Positions 47,564-57,223 of a DNA stretch of 64,000 nt are shown in pieces. The stretch covers positions 1 through 64,000 of the forward strand of contig CANMSA010000004.1 of NCBI GenBank assembly GCA_947500385.1, written 5' to 3'. The position numbers and the translations under genes are program-made. Each line of letters opens with the position of its first letter. The stretch's first letter is position 1. Under the pieces are notes generated by a model. That model was given only the letters and a program-made list of their open reading frames with translations. It searched no databases and was not told the origin of the DNA. The DNA is from an uncultured Flavobacteriaceae bacterium (lineage in GTDB: Bacteria; Bacteroidota; Bacteroidia; Flavobacteriales; Flavobacteriaceae).

Positions 47564-48142
47564 ATGAAAAAAGGAGTAGTAAGTTTAGCATTCACATTAT
47601 TGGTTGGTTTGGCAGCAACGGCCTCTGAACCCGTTAATGAAGAAAAGAAAGTAGTCAATACCGAAACCAGCAAAGTTACCTGGAAGGCATACAAGGTTAC
47701 CGGATCCCATTATGGCAGCATTGCCTTGAAGGAAGGTGCCCTTATGTTCGATGGCGATCAACTGTCTGGCGGTGAGTTTGTGGTCGACATGACCACTATC
47801 AGTACCGAAGATCTCGAAGGTGATTCCAAAGGAAAATTGGACGGACATTTAAATTCGCCCGATTTCTTTGACACTGCAAACCATACGGAAGCATCGCTGA
47901 AGTTCACAGGAATTGAAACCACCGGAAAAAACTCGTATAAAGTGACCGGAGACCTAACGATCAAAGGAATCAAAAAAGCGGTCACCTTTGATCTTTCGGT
48001 TTATGGAAGCAAGGCGACAGCCACCTTAAAAGTCGATAGAGCCAAATACAATGTAAAGTATGGTTCGGGTAGTTTCTTCGACAATTTAGGAGACAAGACC
48101 ATCTATGATGAGTTCGATTTGGTCGTAGATTTGGAATTCTAG
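47564..48142 (+). CDS. YceI family periplasmic lipid-binding protein
   Basis: 192 residues; signal peptide MKKGVVSLAFTLLVGLAATA. The lipocalin-like YceI fold shows as SKVTWKAYKVTGSHYGSI, GGEFVVDMTTIST, DFFDTANHTEASLKFT, GDLTIKGIKKAVTFDL and the C-terminal DEFDLVVDLEF. Members bind isoprenoids or amides in the periplasm. MarR-YceI pairs recur in Flavobacteriia; the pair is probably one transcript. Confidence 0.92.
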   Translation: MKKGVVSLAFTLLVGLAATASEPVNEEKKVVNTETSKVTWKAYKVTGSHYGSIALKEGALMFDGDQLSGGEFVVDMTTISTEDLEGDSKGKLDGHLNSPDFFDTANHTEASLKFTGIETTGKNSYKVTGDLTIKGIKKAVTFDLSVYGSKATATLKVDRAKYNVKYGSGSFFDNLGDKTIYDEFDLVVDLEF

Positions 48143-48197: not shown

Positions 48198-48230
48198 GGA
48201 ACCCTGTAACAACTTTTGTTATGGGGTTCC
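48198..48230. terminator. Long hairpin between yceI-like gene and trp promoter
   Basis: A 15-bp stem (GGAACCCTGTAACAA with TTGTTATGGGGTTCC, two G-T pairs) closes a 3-nt loop, followed by TGAATTTTAT. The T-run is weak, so it is a probable rather than certain terminator insulating the trp operon. Confidence 0.6.
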
Positions 48231-48250
48231 TGAATTTTATGGCCCTCTTA

Positions 48251-48282
48251 TTGGTGATTTTAAAAAATCATTTCTATATTTG
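48251..48282 (+). promoter_or_regulatory. trp operon promoter
   Basis: TTG (48251-48253), 21-bp spacer, TATATTTG (48275-48282): a full match to the Bacteroidota consensus. If the -7 box is centred at -7, transcription starts at ~48286, one base before the trpL ATG. Confidence 0.8.
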
Positions 48283-48286
48283 ACCA

Positions 48287-48343
48287 ATGAACAATTTGAA
48301 CATAAATACTTGGTGGTGGTACAACTCTCGAAACAAATCGTGA
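48287..48343 (+). CDS. trpL: trp operon leader peptide
   Basis: Eighteen codons then TGA: MNNLNINTWWWYNSRNKS. Three consecutive TGG codons (48311-48319) sense tryptophanyl-tRNA supply, as in classical trp attenuation. The upstream in-frame stop TGA (48281-48283) fixes the ATG. The promoter -7 box ends only five bases before the ATG, so the message is predicted to begin at or next to the start codon (leaderless), in keeping with SD-independent initiation in this phylum. It precedes an intrinsic terminator and trpE. A small hairpin (CTCTCGA with TCGTGAG, 48325-48331 and 48338-48344, one mismatch) overlaps its end and stop codon. Confidence 0.88.
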   Translation: MNNLNINTWWWYNSRNKS

Positions 48344-48371
48344 GCTGAGCATCGTTATAGTACAACTATAT

Positions 48372-48400
48372 AAGGCCTGTCTTCACGACAGGCCTTTTTT
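48372..48400 (+). terminator. trp attenuator terminator
   Basis: A 10-bp perfect stem AAGGCCTGTC/GACAGGCCTT (48372-48381, 48387-48396), 5-nt loop TTCAC and six T residues, 28 bases before trpE. It lies 28 bases after the trpL stop. Loop bases TTCACGA (48382-48388) can pair with TCGTGAG (48338-48344) of the leader, a candidate competing structure. Confidence 0.88.
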
Positions 48401-48428
48401 AATTTAAGCGCAAAAACGTTTTATCCTT

Positions 48429-49826
48429 ATGAGATTCAATCTTACCACCCATTACAAACAAATACTGGCCGATACCATTACCCCGGTGAGTGTGTACCTA
48501 AAAATTCGGGATCGTTTTCCCAATAGTATTTTGTTGGAGAGTAGCGACTACCATGCCAATGACAATAGTTTTTCCTATATCTGTTGCAATCCCATCGCCT
48601 CGATCAAGGTAGAAAACGAGCTTATATCCCAAAACTATCCGGATGGTAGTTCGGAAACGGTTTCAATCGCCGAAGACACCGATGTGGTATCTGTCATTGA
48701 TGCCTTTGCAAAAAAATTCAAAGTAGGCGACAACGACTTTAAGTTCATTGACAACGGGCTCTTTGGATATATGTCGTACGATGCGGTACGCTATTTCGAA
48801 GCCATTGAAATCGGGAAGAAAGAAGGTACCGTGGCAATACCCGATATCTATTATGCCGTTTATCAGAATATCATCGCCATCAACCATTTTAAGAACGAGG
48901 CCTATCTCTTCGCGCATTGTTATGATTCTGAAAACAATATTGCAGCAATAGAACAGATCCTCAATGTAAAGAATTTTGCCTCCTATAACTTTTCAACAGA
49001 AGGGGCCCCCATTTCGAATTTGGAAGACGAAGAATACCGGGAACATGTGCGGCTCGCCAAGAAGCACTGCCAGCGTGGCGATGTATTTCAATTAGTACTC
49101 TCCAGACGTTTCTCACAGGCGTTCAAGGGCGATGAGTTCAACGTTTACAGAGCCTTGCGATCGGTTAACCCCTCTCCCTATCTCTTTTACTTCGACTACG
49201 GTGATTTTAAGATTTTTGGCAGTTCGCCGGAAGCGCAATTGATCGTCAAAGACGGTACCGCCGAGATCCACCCGATTGCAGGCACTTTCAAACGTACGGG
49301 CAATGACGAGCAAGATGCGATCTTGGCCAAGGAACTCACCGAAGATGATAAAGAGAACAGCGAACACGTAATGCTGGTAGATCTGGCACGAAACGATCTT
49401 AGCCGCAATGGCAACATGGTCGAAGTAGCCAATTACCGCGAAGTGCAATTCTTTTCGCATGTCATTCACCTGGTATCCAAGGTAACCGGACAGAAAAAAA
49501 AGGACATTCCCACCATGAAGGTCGTTGCCGATACTTTTCCCGCAGGTACCCTTAGCGGGGCGCCAAAACATCGGGCCATGCAATTGATCGAAGAATATGA
49601 AAAAACCGGGCGCGGATACTACGGCGGCGCCATTGGCTTTATGGATTTCAAAGGAAATTTCAACCACGCCATCATGATCCGTACGTTCTTGAGCAAGAAC
49701 CACCAATTATATTACCAAGCTGGTGCCGGTTTGGTAGCGGCATCTGATCCCGAAGACGAATTACAGGAAACCTATAACAAATTGGGCGCACTTACCAAAG
49801 CCTTGGAAATTGCTAAAACCATATAG
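48429..49826 (+). CDS. trpE: Anthranilate synthase component I
   Basis: 465 residues. It makes anthranilate from chorismate with ammonia supplied by TrpG, the first step of tryptophan synthesis. N-terminal LLESSDY (~35) is the feedback tryptophan-binding motif. The chorismate-binding domain has FGSSPEAQLIV, PIAGTFKRTG, VDLARNDLSRNG, FPAGTLSGAPKHRAMQLIEE (short: AGTLSGAPKHRAM) and GYYGGAIGF. First structural gene after the attenuator; 45 bp before trpG. Confidence 0.97.
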   Translation: MRFNLTTHYKQILADTITPVSVYLKIRDRFPNSILLESSDYHANDNSFSYICCNPIASIKVENELISQNYPDGSSETVSIAEDTDVVSVIDAFAKKFKVGDNDFKFIDNGLFGYMSYDAVRYFEAIEIGKKEGTVAIPDIYYAVYQNIIAINHFKNEAYLFAHCYDSENNIAAIEQILNVKNFASYNFSTEGAPISNLEDEEYREHVRLAKKHCQRGDVFQLVLSRRFSQAFKGDEFNVYRALRSVNPSPYLFYFDYGDFKIFGSSPEAQLIVKDGTAEIHPIAGTFKRTGNDEQDAILAKELTEDDKENSEHVMLVDLARNDLSRNGNMVEVANYREVQFFSHVIHLVSKVTGQKKKDIPTMKVVADTFPAGTLSGAPKHRAMQLIEEYEKTGRGYYGGAIGFMDFKGNFNHAIMIRTFLSKNHQLYYQAGAGLVAASDPEDELQETYNKLGALTKALEIAKTI

Positions 49827-53310: not shown

Positions 53311-54228
53311 ATGAATGCGGTATTAGGAAGTATAATAGAAAATTTAAGAAGTATTGGAATTACATATTCTCCCACAGTAGAAATTTTCAAAGGGGATAGA
53401 ACAAACACTGGCGATGCTAAAGAGTATTCGGTAAATGACTTTATTGCTAGTTACTTAACACAAGATTACGAGGTTAAAAAGGGTAAAATCTACTGTTTAT
53501 CAGGTGAAAGTCAAAATATTGATTGCGTTGTTTTAGCTCCTAATCATCCCAAATTGATTACACCTGTCCGTGATGTAATTCTTGCTGAAGGTGTTTTTTG
53601 TGCTATAGAAGTAAAACCAGACATTAGAACTTTATCAGATTCTTCGGAATTCTATCGAGGTTTAAAACAAATGAAATCAATTAAAAACCTTGAAAGAACA
53701 GTAGATAGATTGAATCTGAATTCACTCAATAAAAAAGAACCTTTACCTCCATATTTTGACAAAATTCCAGCTGTTCTTTTTAGCAAGGAATGTGCAGAAA
53801 TTCCCAAAATGATAGAATTTATTCAAGCAAAAGTCAAGATCAATGAATTAGGCAAAGAGGAATTACCAGATTTAATTTTTTCAATTGAAAAAGGAGTATT
53901 GTTTTATTCTCCTTATTTCAAACATACTAAGTTCTATAAAAAACTTAGCCCTCTTCAGAAAAAGATATTTGATGAAGAAGCATTTATGCATATCCAAGCA
54001 GAAGAACAACATATTAATTTATTATTGTTTTTAATGTTTGTTTTAAGCTTTGATACTCCTCACATAAAAGTATCCGACTTTTTCATTAAAAAGTACTTTA
54101 ATCAAGAAGGTGTTAGTATTTCAACAAAATTCTACCCTTTAGATAAAAACAAAATCGGAAACATAAAACCAAAAGATTTGATTAAATTAAGAAAAGACAA
54201 CTTTAAAAACGATGAAAAGGTTTCATAA
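53311..54228 (+). CDS. DUF6602-like protein, putative PD-(D/E)XK nuclease fold
   Basis: 305 residues; no signal peptide or membrane helix. The N-terminal third fits a PD-(D/E)XK core: acidic helix with E38, D71 in NIDCVVLAP and E100-x-K102 in FCAIEVKPD, the pattern of metal-dependent nucleases. I believe this matches DUF6602, a family without an assigned function. The C-terminal half is helical and Lys-rich. The gene is visibly AT-rich compared with the flanking trp genes and, with the next gene, splits trpF from trpB, suggesting acquisition by transfer. Nuclease activity is inferred, and a Vsr-like or defence role is only speculation. Confidence 0.65.
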   Translation: MNAVLGSIIENLRSIGITYSPTVEIFKGDRTNTGDAKEYSVNDFIASYLTQDYEVKKGKIYCLSGESQNIDCVVLAPNHPKLITPVRDVILAEGVFCAIEVKPDIRTLSDSSEFYRGLKQMKSIKNLERTVDRLNLNSLNKKEPLPPYFDKIPAVLFSKECAEIPKMIEFIQAKVKINELGKEELPDLIFSIEKGVLFYSPYFKHTKFYKKLSPLQKKIFDEEAFMHIQAEEQHINLLLFLMFVLSFDTPHIKVSDFFIKKYFNQEGVSISTKFYPLDKNKIGNIKPKDLIKLRKDNFKNDEKVS

Positions 54229-54331: not shown

Positions 54332-55021
54332 ATGAACATCATAAAAAACATATTCGTTCTAATTTCACCAGTACTGGTTTCAAGTAGTTTTGCCCAAACC
54401 AATTTCAAAGAATACTATTATCCTGTTAGAGCGAAGAAGGAAGTGAAAATTTACAAATACGTGGATAAAAACAATCAGAGTAATATTGAATATTGGAAGG
54501 TCACTACAAGTCCAGAAACCAATAGAATCATAACCGCGTCCTATACAACTGACCGTAGATTGTACAACATTTTTGAGGAAGAGTTGAAAACCGATGGTGC
54601 AGAATTAGTGCGATATACTGATTTTGAAATAAGCGATACCGGCGAAAATGTCCAAATAGACGGTATAGTGGTCGATAAAGATGTTTACAAATGGAAAGAC
54701 AAAAACAAATACAGGTATTCAATAAAATACAAGAGTCCAAAATATGGAAATGAATTATTTACAAAAGAACGGACCGTAAATAGTTTCGAAAAAATAATTG
54801 TAAGTGGAATTGAATACGCAACCTTAAAGTTCAGGGATGAATACGAAGTCAAATCCTTGGAAAATAACCAATATTATAAATTTCATCAATTTACTTACTA
54901 TGCTAAAGACATTGGAATGATAAAATATGAACGATATCATCCCGATGGCACCACAATTGAATTAGAATTGAGAGAGTTGCTCACACTAAAGCAATTTGAA
55001 AAATTAATCAAAAAAAGCTAG
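54332..55021 (+). CDS. Secreted protein of unknown function inserted in trp operon
   Basis: 229 residues; signal peptide MNIIKNIFVLISPVLVSSSFAQ, then a beta-rich, Tyr/Lys-rich mature region (YYYPVRAKKEVKIYKYVDK in part; KWKDKNKYRYSIKYKS) with alternating strands. I do not recognise the family. It is AT-rich like its upstream neighbour (103-bp gap) and faces the same way as the operon, so it is probably transcribed with trp genes. Nothing links it to tryptophan synthesis. Confidence 0.75.
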   Translation: MNIIKNIFVLISPVLVSSSFAQTNFKEYYYPVRAKKEVKIYKYVDKNNQSNIEYWKVTTSPETNRIITASYTTDRRLYNIFEEELKTDGAELVRYTDFEISDTGENVQIDGIVVDKDVYKWKDKNKYRYSIKYKSPKYGNELFTKERTVNSFEKIIVSGIEYATLKFRDEYEVKSLENNQYYKFHQFTYYAKDIGMIKYERYHPDGTTIELELRELLTLKQFEKLIKKS

Positions 55022-56461: not shown

Positions 56462-57223
56462 ATGAACAGAATCAACAACAAACTCCAAGAATCGAAAAAA
56501 CTACTCTCTATCTATTTTACGGCAGGCTACCCTGCCTTGAACGATACCGTTCAAATCATTCAGGAACTCGAGAAAAACGGGGTGGATATGATCGAAATCG
56601 GCCTGCCTTTCAGCGATCCCCTGGCAGACGGGCCTACCATTCAAGAAAGCTCAACCCAAGCATTGCGGAATGGCATGCATACCGAATTGCTTTTTGAGCA
56701 GTTGAAAGACATTCGAAAAACCGTTTCCATTCCCTTGATCGTCATGGGGTACTTTAACCCGATGCTCCAATACGGGGTGGAGGCTTTCTGTAAAAAGTGC
56801 CATGAAATTGGGATCGATGGTATCATCATGCCCGACTTGCCCTTGGATGTGTACCAGGCCGACTATGCCGCTACCTTTAAAAAATACGGGTTGATCAATG
56901 TCTTCTTGATCACCCCACAGACCAGCGAGGCCCGTATCCGGGAAATCGATGCCGCTTCCGATGGGTTTATCTACATGGTCAGTTCCGCTAGTGTGACCGG
57001 AGCCAAAACGGGCTTTGGTGATATGCAAACCAACTATTTTGAGCGCATTGCCGCCATGCAATTGAAAAACCCACAGATCGTAGGGTTTGGGATCAGTAAC
57101 AGCGAAACCTTTCAGGCCGCCACCCATACCGCCAAGGGGGCTATTATCGGATCGGCCTTTATCAAGCATTTGACCGCAAGCGGCGTGGAAAGCATTGCCG
57201 AATTTACGCAACGAATACGCTAG
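56462..57223 (+). CDS. trpA: Tryptophan synthase alpha chain
   Basis: 253 residues from ATG at 56462; a longer TTG start at 56441 lies in the repeat and is rejected. Catalytic Glu45 (MIEIGLPFSDP) and Asp56 (LADGPT) are in place, with the phosphate loop GFGISNSE and GSAFIKH. It cleaves indole glycerol phosphate and passes indole to TrpB. Its stop overlaps the next start (TAGTG). Confidence 0.96.
   Translation: MNRINNKLQESKKLLSIYFTAGYPALNDTVQIIQELEKNGVDMIEIGLPFSDPLADGPTIQESSTQALRNGMHTELLFEQLKDIRKTVSIPLIVMGYFNPMLQYGVEAFCKKCHEIGIDGIIMPDLPLDVYQADYAATFKKYGLINVFLITPQTSEARIREIDAASDGFIYMVSSASVTGAKTGFGDMQTNYFERIAAMQLKNPQIVGFGISNSETFQAATHTAKGAIIGSAFIKHLTASGVESIAEFTQRIR

Follow-up and report, generated by a model that had tools for sequence, protein, structure and literature searches.

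A probable ribosome-mediated attenuator of the trp operon, orthologous to Bacteroid-trp and predicted to start at or next to its leader AUG, in a member of the Flavobacteriaceae

The trp operon of an uncultured Flavobacteriaceae bacterium is preceded by what is probably (at a rough probability of 0.87) a ribosome-mediated transcription attenuator that is orthologous to the Rfam family Bacteroid-trp and starts at or next to the AUG of its leader peptide. The element lies in a stretch of 64,000 nucleotides, all of which was analysed (hereafter, the window). It is a real attenuator of a known kind, ordinary in kind and informative in detail. Attenuation of trp had already been predicted in this phylum; the new detail comprises the strands of the antiterminator, the near-leaderless predicted start, the fold around a ribosome footprint, and the sister leaders for His, Phe and Ile-Val-Leu.

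Architecture of the trp leader

An intergenic region of 286 bases between yceI (47564-48142) and trpE (48429-49826; the regulated gene, which starts the trp operon) holds a promoter, a leader frame and a terminator, all on the forward (+) strand. A terminator scan finds a terminator-like hairpin 3' of yceI (48198-48230; a 15-pair stem with loose Ts behind it), so the leader probably starts its own unit. The terminator in front of trpE is ruled out as that of yceI, which has this separate hairpin.

By direct reading, the promoter consists of a -33 element TTG (48251-48253) and a -7 box TATATTTG (48275-48282; consensus TAnnTTTG), with a spacer of 21 nt in the window versus 19-20 nt in most relatives. 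Four bases, ACCA, separate the box from the leader ATG at 48287, which bears out the promoter with a -7 box just before an ATG that a preliminary description of this DNA had reported. The leader peptide frame MNNLNINTWWWYNSRNKS (48287-48343, direct reading) comprises 18 codons (48287-48340) followed by the stop codon TGA (48341-48343), and similar peptides, mostly of the form NTWWWNxLRxxS-stop, are encoded in relatives. The putative sensor within this frame is a run of three Trp codons, TGGTGGTGG (48311-48319).

Three segments of seven bases are candidates for the switch. Segment 1, CTCTCGA (48325-48331), reads CTTACGA in most relatives and is the predicted partner of segment 2 when free of the ribosome. 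Segment 2, TCGTGAG (48338-48344), consists of the last sense codon, the stop codon and the next base, and is common to both alternative helices, 1:2 and 2:3. Segment 3, TTCACGA (48382-48388), is made up of the loop of the terminator and the first two bases of its 3' arm. The pairing of segments 1 and 2 carries one U-U mismatch, and that of segments 2 and 3 has seven pairs, one of them G-U. The intrinsic terminator itself (48372-48396; AAGGCCTGTC-TTCAC-GACAGGCCTT) was found by folding and by the terminator scan, and its stem of 10 bp pairs 48372-48381 with 48387-48396 around the loop TTCAC. It runs into six Ts (48395-48400, direct reading), and between it and segment 2 there is a small A/T-rich hairpin (48356-48370) that varies among relatives. 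The 18-codon frame with TGG-TGG-TGG, the 10-bp terminator with six Ts and the three segments had all been named in the preliminary description, and each lies where it was placed.

A short frame running from ATG through TGGTGGTGG to a stop codon arose in 0/60 dinucleotide shuffles of the whole window and in 0/5000 shuffles of the 286-base intergenic region, and on the latter count a chance frame is rejected. The fold of 48286-48428 beats all 200 of its shuffles (z -3.1).

In the mechanism that we propose, RNA polymerase would start at or beside the leader AUG, so that a ribosome would have to load on a (nearly) 5'-terminal AUG without a Shine-Dalgarno sequence. When charged tRNA-Trp is scarce, the ribosome would stall on the WWW codons, cover segment 1 and leave segment 2 free; segment 2 would then pair with the emerging terminator loop, and polymerase would pass into trpE. 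With tryptophan plentiful, the ribosome would reach the stop codon and cover segment 2, allowing the terminator to form. If there were no translation, segment 1 could pair with segment 2, and again the terminator would form. We infer the exact 5' end, the loading of the ribosome and the response to tryptophan. Two marks of an attenuator are present in the DNA, namely a leader rich in codons for the end product of the operon and an intrinsic terminator before the first gene; a mutually exclusive antiterminator freed by a stalled ribosome appears in computation only.

In Escherichia coli, the trp attenuator is built of segments 1 to 4, and stalling on the Trp codons frees segment 2. The logic proposed here is the same. 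Unlike in E. coli, the 5' UTR is predicted to be near zero, the stop codon lies within segment 2, and segment 3 is mostly terminator loop. The E. coli family Trp_leader (RF00513) scores 23.1 bits against the window, below its cut-off of 41.

Conservation among close relatives

Close relatives were taken from a TrpE scan of the genome collection as the best 80 of 571 confirmed loci, whose record titles give genera of Flavobacteriaceae, or unclassified Flavobacteriaceae or Bacteroidia. A first look at these best 80 of 571 found a WW frame no more than 400 bases from trpE in 73, and in the remaining seven a leader of identical type precedes a GIY-YIG-like gene instead. All 80 trpE relatives (the best 80 of 571) combine TGGTGGTGG in a short frame with a terminator of the same design, which strongly supports the earlier interpretation as Trp attenuation.

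When the window is aligned with the best 80 of the 571 loci (81 rows), the ATG, the nine bases of the Trp codons, CGTGA at the leader stop codon (81/81) and most of the terminator are invariant. Within segment 3, alignment columns 108 (T), 109 (C) and 111 (C) do not vary, and column 110 is A in 79 rows and G in two. The terminator loop of these 81 leaders (window plus best 80 of 571) reads UCAC, or UCGC in two, and additional loop bases are placed 5' of UCAC, which is the complement of GUGA, the leader stop codon with its preceding base. The parts of the element and their conservation can be seen directly in the sequences, as can the joint replacement of segments 2 and 3 in the distant relatives described below.

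Among 80 distinct rows, the terminator stem is paired in 100% of cells, with one pair changed on both sides, and the 1:2 helix is paired in 89%. The 1:2 hairpin with the Trp-codon region is present in the predicted fold and in the Rfam alignment; in the 80 distinct rows of close relatives, covariation of its inner helix is no better than in shuffles. Covariation of the 2:3 helix was absent from the 81 close leaders (window plus best 80 of 571) because the helix hardly varies there. The preliminary description had suggested comparing trp leaders for conserved Trp runs and covarying pairs; the runs are indeed kept (80/80, among the best 80 of 571), and the covariation of 2:3 did not appear in close relatives. 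The near-invariance of 2:3 is the reason why distant loci were examined (see below).

The frame and the terminator might exist without any regulation by tryptophan, or the structure might serve as a target for a protein or, in the manner of a T-box, for uncharged tRNA. This is very improbable, given that WWW is invariant in 81 leaders (window plus best 80 of 571) and that the three other leaders of this genome carry cognate residues (His, Phe and Ile/Val/Leu). A T-box or other known riboregulator is rejected, as among Rfam families only tRNAs reach their gathering scores in the window.

The gene order downstream, by Pfam, is trpE, trpG, trpD, trpC, trpF, two unrelated frames, trpB and trpA, ending at 57223. 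The unrelated frames, which sit between trpF and trpB (53311-54228 and 54332-55021), match DUF6602 and, below the cut-off, a DUF3108-like domain.

The GIY-YIG-like gene between the trp terminator and trpE occurs in seven of the best 80 of 571 loci (L014, L042, L048 at 1672-1962, L055, L057, L076 and L078). It has hairpin-like repeats on its flanks and, in L048, 96 codons (the family assignment and the repeats come from visual inspection), and it looks like a small mobile insertion; lying downstream of the trp terminator, it would be expressed under trp attenuation. The window's own genome has GIY-YIG genes in tandem outside the window (G000:C1:70098-70993), with two equal-scoring copies and a third stretch broken by a stop codon, among 11 matches in the genome.

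Relation to Bacteroid-trp

A permissive Rfam scan of 48201-48428 matched the leader to the full model (1-131) of RF01692, Bacteroid-trp, with 48.0 bits and an E-value of 4.6e-5. This is one bit short of the gathering score of 49 bits, so a default Rfam scan misses the leader; when 20 of the 80 close relatives were scanned, 14 passed the cut-off. Judged from its alignment with relatives above that cut-off, the leader is an orthologue of this family, a kinship that rests on orthology and not on score. Like the family, it lies before trp genes in Bacteroidota, has consecutive Trp codons in a short leader frame, and shares the 5' arm of the terminator at the 3' end of the model and, by prediction, the 1:2 hairpin. 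The model encodes the 1:2 hairpin only and, in the alignment, ends inside that arm; unlike the description given here, it does not include the complete terminator, the antiterminator, the promoter or the 5' end.

Beyond the window, genomes with matches to RF01692 belong to the same family, order or class. Matches were found in 42/395 genomes of a phylum draw (E<=0.001), 36/395 of a class draw (E<=0.01) and 52/296 of an order draw (E<=0.01), where the three draws overlap and include the window's genome, and strict filters lose weak matches. A comparative study of attenuators from 2004 is said to cover cases in Bacteroidetes/Chlorobi.

The preliminary description had set this element against a classical attenuation established for Proteobacteria, a contrast that is out of date. 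In the portions of the literature covered, trp attenuation in Bacteroidetes was predicted in 2010, when Bacteroid-trp (RF01692) was listed (Weinberg et al., PMC2864571), the element was noted upstream of the trp operon of Flavobacterium psychrophilum in 2019 (PMC6414381), and leader-peptide attenuation was inferred for amino-acid operons of that species in 2021 (PMC9723704). The last of these rests, as here, on leader-peptide clues before amino-acid operons, and the parts covered describe pheA and hisG elements that are kept across Flavobacteriaceae, the hisG element without Rfam hits. Unlike the present account, those parts give no mechanism or pairing, and the words 'trp' and 'tryptophan' are absent from the main text. 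Open-access main texts on Bacteroid-trp, leaderless attenuators and Bacteroidetes leader peptides yielded, in the portions covered, no antiterminator or near-leaderless 5' end for this element.

The antiterminator in distant Bacteroidota

The distant set consists of 73 loci (L084-L156), all other matches of the three genome draws, of which 30 were returned by the search and 43 were fetched as stretches. By script criteria, all 73 have a frame and a terminator, with WWW in 67 and WW in six; since these loci were picked by RF01692, Trp codons are expected in them. For each leader, we determined the best uninterrupted helix that the terminator loop and 5' arm can form with the bases downstream of the Trp codons, and compared it with those of 300 dinucleotide shuffles. 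A contiguous 2:3 helix of at least 6 bp is present in 71 of 74 leaders (the 73 distant ones and the window) and is better than shuffles at p<=0.05 in 51, including the window (p=0.043). Grouped into distinct segment-3 classes, 13/28 reach p<=0.05 and 15/28 are without significance (p from 0.05 to 0.2 in twelve, over 0.5 in three). Combining the classes by Fisher's method gives 1.6e-11, which is a guide only because the sequences are related.

The segment 2/3 pairs that replace one another include UCGUGA/UCACGA, GAACAGC/GCUGUUC, GGCAACC/GGUUGCC, UCAAAGUCUU/AAGACUUUGA, AUGUGGC/GCCACAU and GAGAAGC/GCUUCUC, as well as CCGUGA/UCACGG (p 0.19) and GUGAGA/UCUCAC (p 0.07), which are not significant alone. 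By these sequence comparisons, segments 2 and 3 are replaced together across several sequence classes in distant Bacteroidota, with their complementarity kept; the antiterminator joins the stop-codon region of the leader to the loop or the 5' arm of the terminator. The pairing of TCGTGAG with the terminator loop, suggested in the preliminary description from the window alone, thus gains support from its re-creation with other letters in distant relatives. The 2:3 helix overlaps the leader stop codon in 50/74 leaders and does not in 24/74 (for example, L109, L126, L148 and L118/L147/L150). In L109, TGA stands in place of the Arg codon after WWW, giving an early stop ahead of segment 2.

The antiterminator had also been described as short. 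That needs correction for many relatives, where a second helix, AAGC/GCUU, is found when gaps are allowed and the duplex reaches down to -18 kcal/mol; the window has only a weak second helix. A gapped-duplex test of 140 distinct leaders gave p<=0.05 in 38/71 close and 50/69 distant ones, and the window's gapped duplex was not significant (E -10.1, p=0.204). When terminators were exchanged across species, 13/33 variant leaders and 26/41 common-type leaders ranked in the top 5%; the remaining 20/33 variant leaders and the window (one of the 41 common-type leaders, rank 0.367) fell outside it. A motif common to most leaders, UCGUGA/UCACGA, confounds this test.

Folding with a masked ribosome

Leaders were folded with a ribosome mask assumed to cover up to 13 nt from the first base of the A-site codon. 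When the ribosome occupies a Trp codon and segment 3 has only just emerged, the window has a predicted 2:3 probability of 0.93-0.96 and four relatives (L010, L024, L064 and L081) have 0.88-0.91; with the ribosome at the stop codon, this probability is 0.00 in all five leaders. With Trp1 in the A site and the 3' arm of the terminator partly out, the window drops to 0.14 and L064 to 0.71. If no ribosome is present and the 3' arm has yet to emerge, neither helix prevails in the window (1:2 0.43, 2:3 0.46), 1:2 is dominant in L024 (0.98) and L064 (0.92), and 2:3 is favoured in L081 (0.59) and L010 (0.82). Given this sizeable probability of 2:3, untranslated RNA would not be cleanly off in the model. 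Masked-footprint folding reproduces, within the model and with these caveats, the switch between stalled and non-stalled states.

Whatever the ribosome state, folding favours the complete terminator, and antitermination would therefore have to be a kinetic decision. This preference, together with the weakness of the antiterminator next to the terminator in the window (-10.1 vs -17.0 kcal/mol), is what would be expected if the terminator and the Trp codons were real and the choice were made in some way other than by 2:3, for instance by a ribosome that blocks the terminator or by a different antiterminator. We regard such a choice as quite unlikely, because loop bases that are needless for termination are (nearly) invariant in 81 leaders (window plus best 80 of 571), extra loop bases are placed 5' of UCAC, and other sequence classes have formed the complement anew.

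The 5' end of the transcript

In F. psychrophilum, the TAnnTTTG box spans -12 to -5, counted from the start of transcription, according to the portions covered of PMC9723704, and promoters of F. johnsoniae were deemed probable at 4-5 nt from box to start. Applied to the window, this flavobacterial rule puts the predicted start right on the first base of the leader ATG (A, 48287), with a 5' UTR of 0 nt. Among the 81 close leaders (window plus best 80 of 571), 78 have their nearest TAnnTTTG box 4-8 nt before the ATG and a predicted 5' UTR of 0-4 nt (0 in 4 leaders, 1 in 52, 2 in 4, 3 in 16 and 4 in 2). The exceptions are L004 and L027, with predicted 5' UTRs of 26 and 24 nt, and L030, which has no TAnnTTTG box and whose own box is one base off. 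This promoter spacing supports the near-leaderless 5' end proposed in the preliminary description, as a prediction.

The predicted UTRs of the 73 distant leaders have a bimodal distribution, with 0-8 nt in 26, 12-19 nt in 34 and no box found in 13; one genus, g2, accounts for 21 of the 34 longer ones. A predicted UTR of at most 4 nt occurs in 23/73; some of these leaders belong to a different family of the order (L118, L147 and L150) or a different order of the class (for example, L137-L140), and others are near the window. Near-leaderless spacing is therefore predicted to characterise the window's clade and to occur elsewhere as well; close relatives, having common ancestry, do not count as independent cases.

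The same attenuator could have an ordinary 5' UTR, with transcription starting further upstream and the spacing between promoter and ATG only apparent. The 34/73 distant leaders (21 from g2) whose -7 box lies 16-23 nt before the ATG, and the longer predicted UTRs of L004 and L027, are in line with this, as is the minority status of leaderless mRNAs in the phylum (5.5% in F. psychrophilum, in the covered parts of PMC9723704; in B. thetaiotaomicron, about 3.7% of 5' UTRs are shorter than 10 nt). It is nonetheless unlikely, since the box lies 4-8 nt before the ATG in 78/81 leaders (window plus best 80 of 571), box and start are as a rule 4-5 nt apart in F. psychrophilum and F. johnsoniae, and the yceI hairpin at 48198-48230 would limit readthrough from upstream.

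A start at or beside the AUG, which we prefer, has parallels in other phyla, as described in the portions covered of two papers. The trpL transcript of Sinorhizobium meliloti, upstream of trpE(G), has its 5' end at the ATG of the Trp leader peptide that it encodes (PMC7298713), and trpL1 of Streptomyces lividans is a leaderless WWW leader of 18 residues upstream of trpE (PMC8079986). Unlike the present bacterium, S. meliloti is an alphaproteobacterium and S. lividans an actinomycete; the likeness is one of description, and for S. lividans trpL1 it is presumably convergent. Thus, the idea of a leaderless trp leader is not itself new.

Other amino-acid leaders in the genome and family

The same genome encodes three further leaders with cognate residues, each followed by a terminator: MRTINVHHHFYHCAQAR-stop, with HHH, before hisG (L157; scan-confirmed), the F-rich MIKQYFYNGFYFYFFFRSETGLS-stop before the prephenate dehydratase gene pheA (L158), and MKTIALIVILSLVVP-stop, with I/L/V, before one of three ilvD-like genes (L159; scan-confirmed). 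The his frame begins 7 nt after a -7-like box (TATTTTTA), the ilv frame 5 nt after TACCTTTA, and the phe frame, by eye, about 18 nt after TACTTTAG. Inspection by eye upstream of two thrA-like genes (L164, L165) revealed no leader.

Across the family, 30 hisG loci were compared (L157 and L166-L194), namely that of the window's genome and those of 29 of the 48 other genomes with a match among 60 drawn. In 29/30, a short frame contains two or more His codons side by side and is followed by a hairpin with Ts, and the His leader peptide is often near MxFIQLHHHHFHxCxQA. A loose scan of ilvD found a frame with any hairpin in 19/30 loci, two or three of the hairpins being too weak to count; about half of the 30 are convincing by eye.

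Implications

A complete and testable switch can now be proposed for a family whose catalogue entry has so far consisted of a single hairpin. Messages in this phylum generally lack Shine-Dalgarno sequences, as stated in the portions covered of PMC6847099 and PMC3155529. We give about even odds to the broader proposal that flavobacteria of this clade run ribosome-sensing trp, his and ilv attenuators from transcripts that start at, or a few bases from, the leader AUG. If this is true, initiation at a 5'-terminal AUG without a Shine-Dalgarno sequence would be the entry step of the sensor, the loading of the ribosome would be tied to the moment at which the 5' end leaves the polymerase, and the leader stop codon would itself be the switching strand. 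Were the starts truly at the AUG, these leaders would be natural reporters of how a leaderless mRNA is loaded onto a ribosome quickly enough to control a polymerase about 100 nt ahead.
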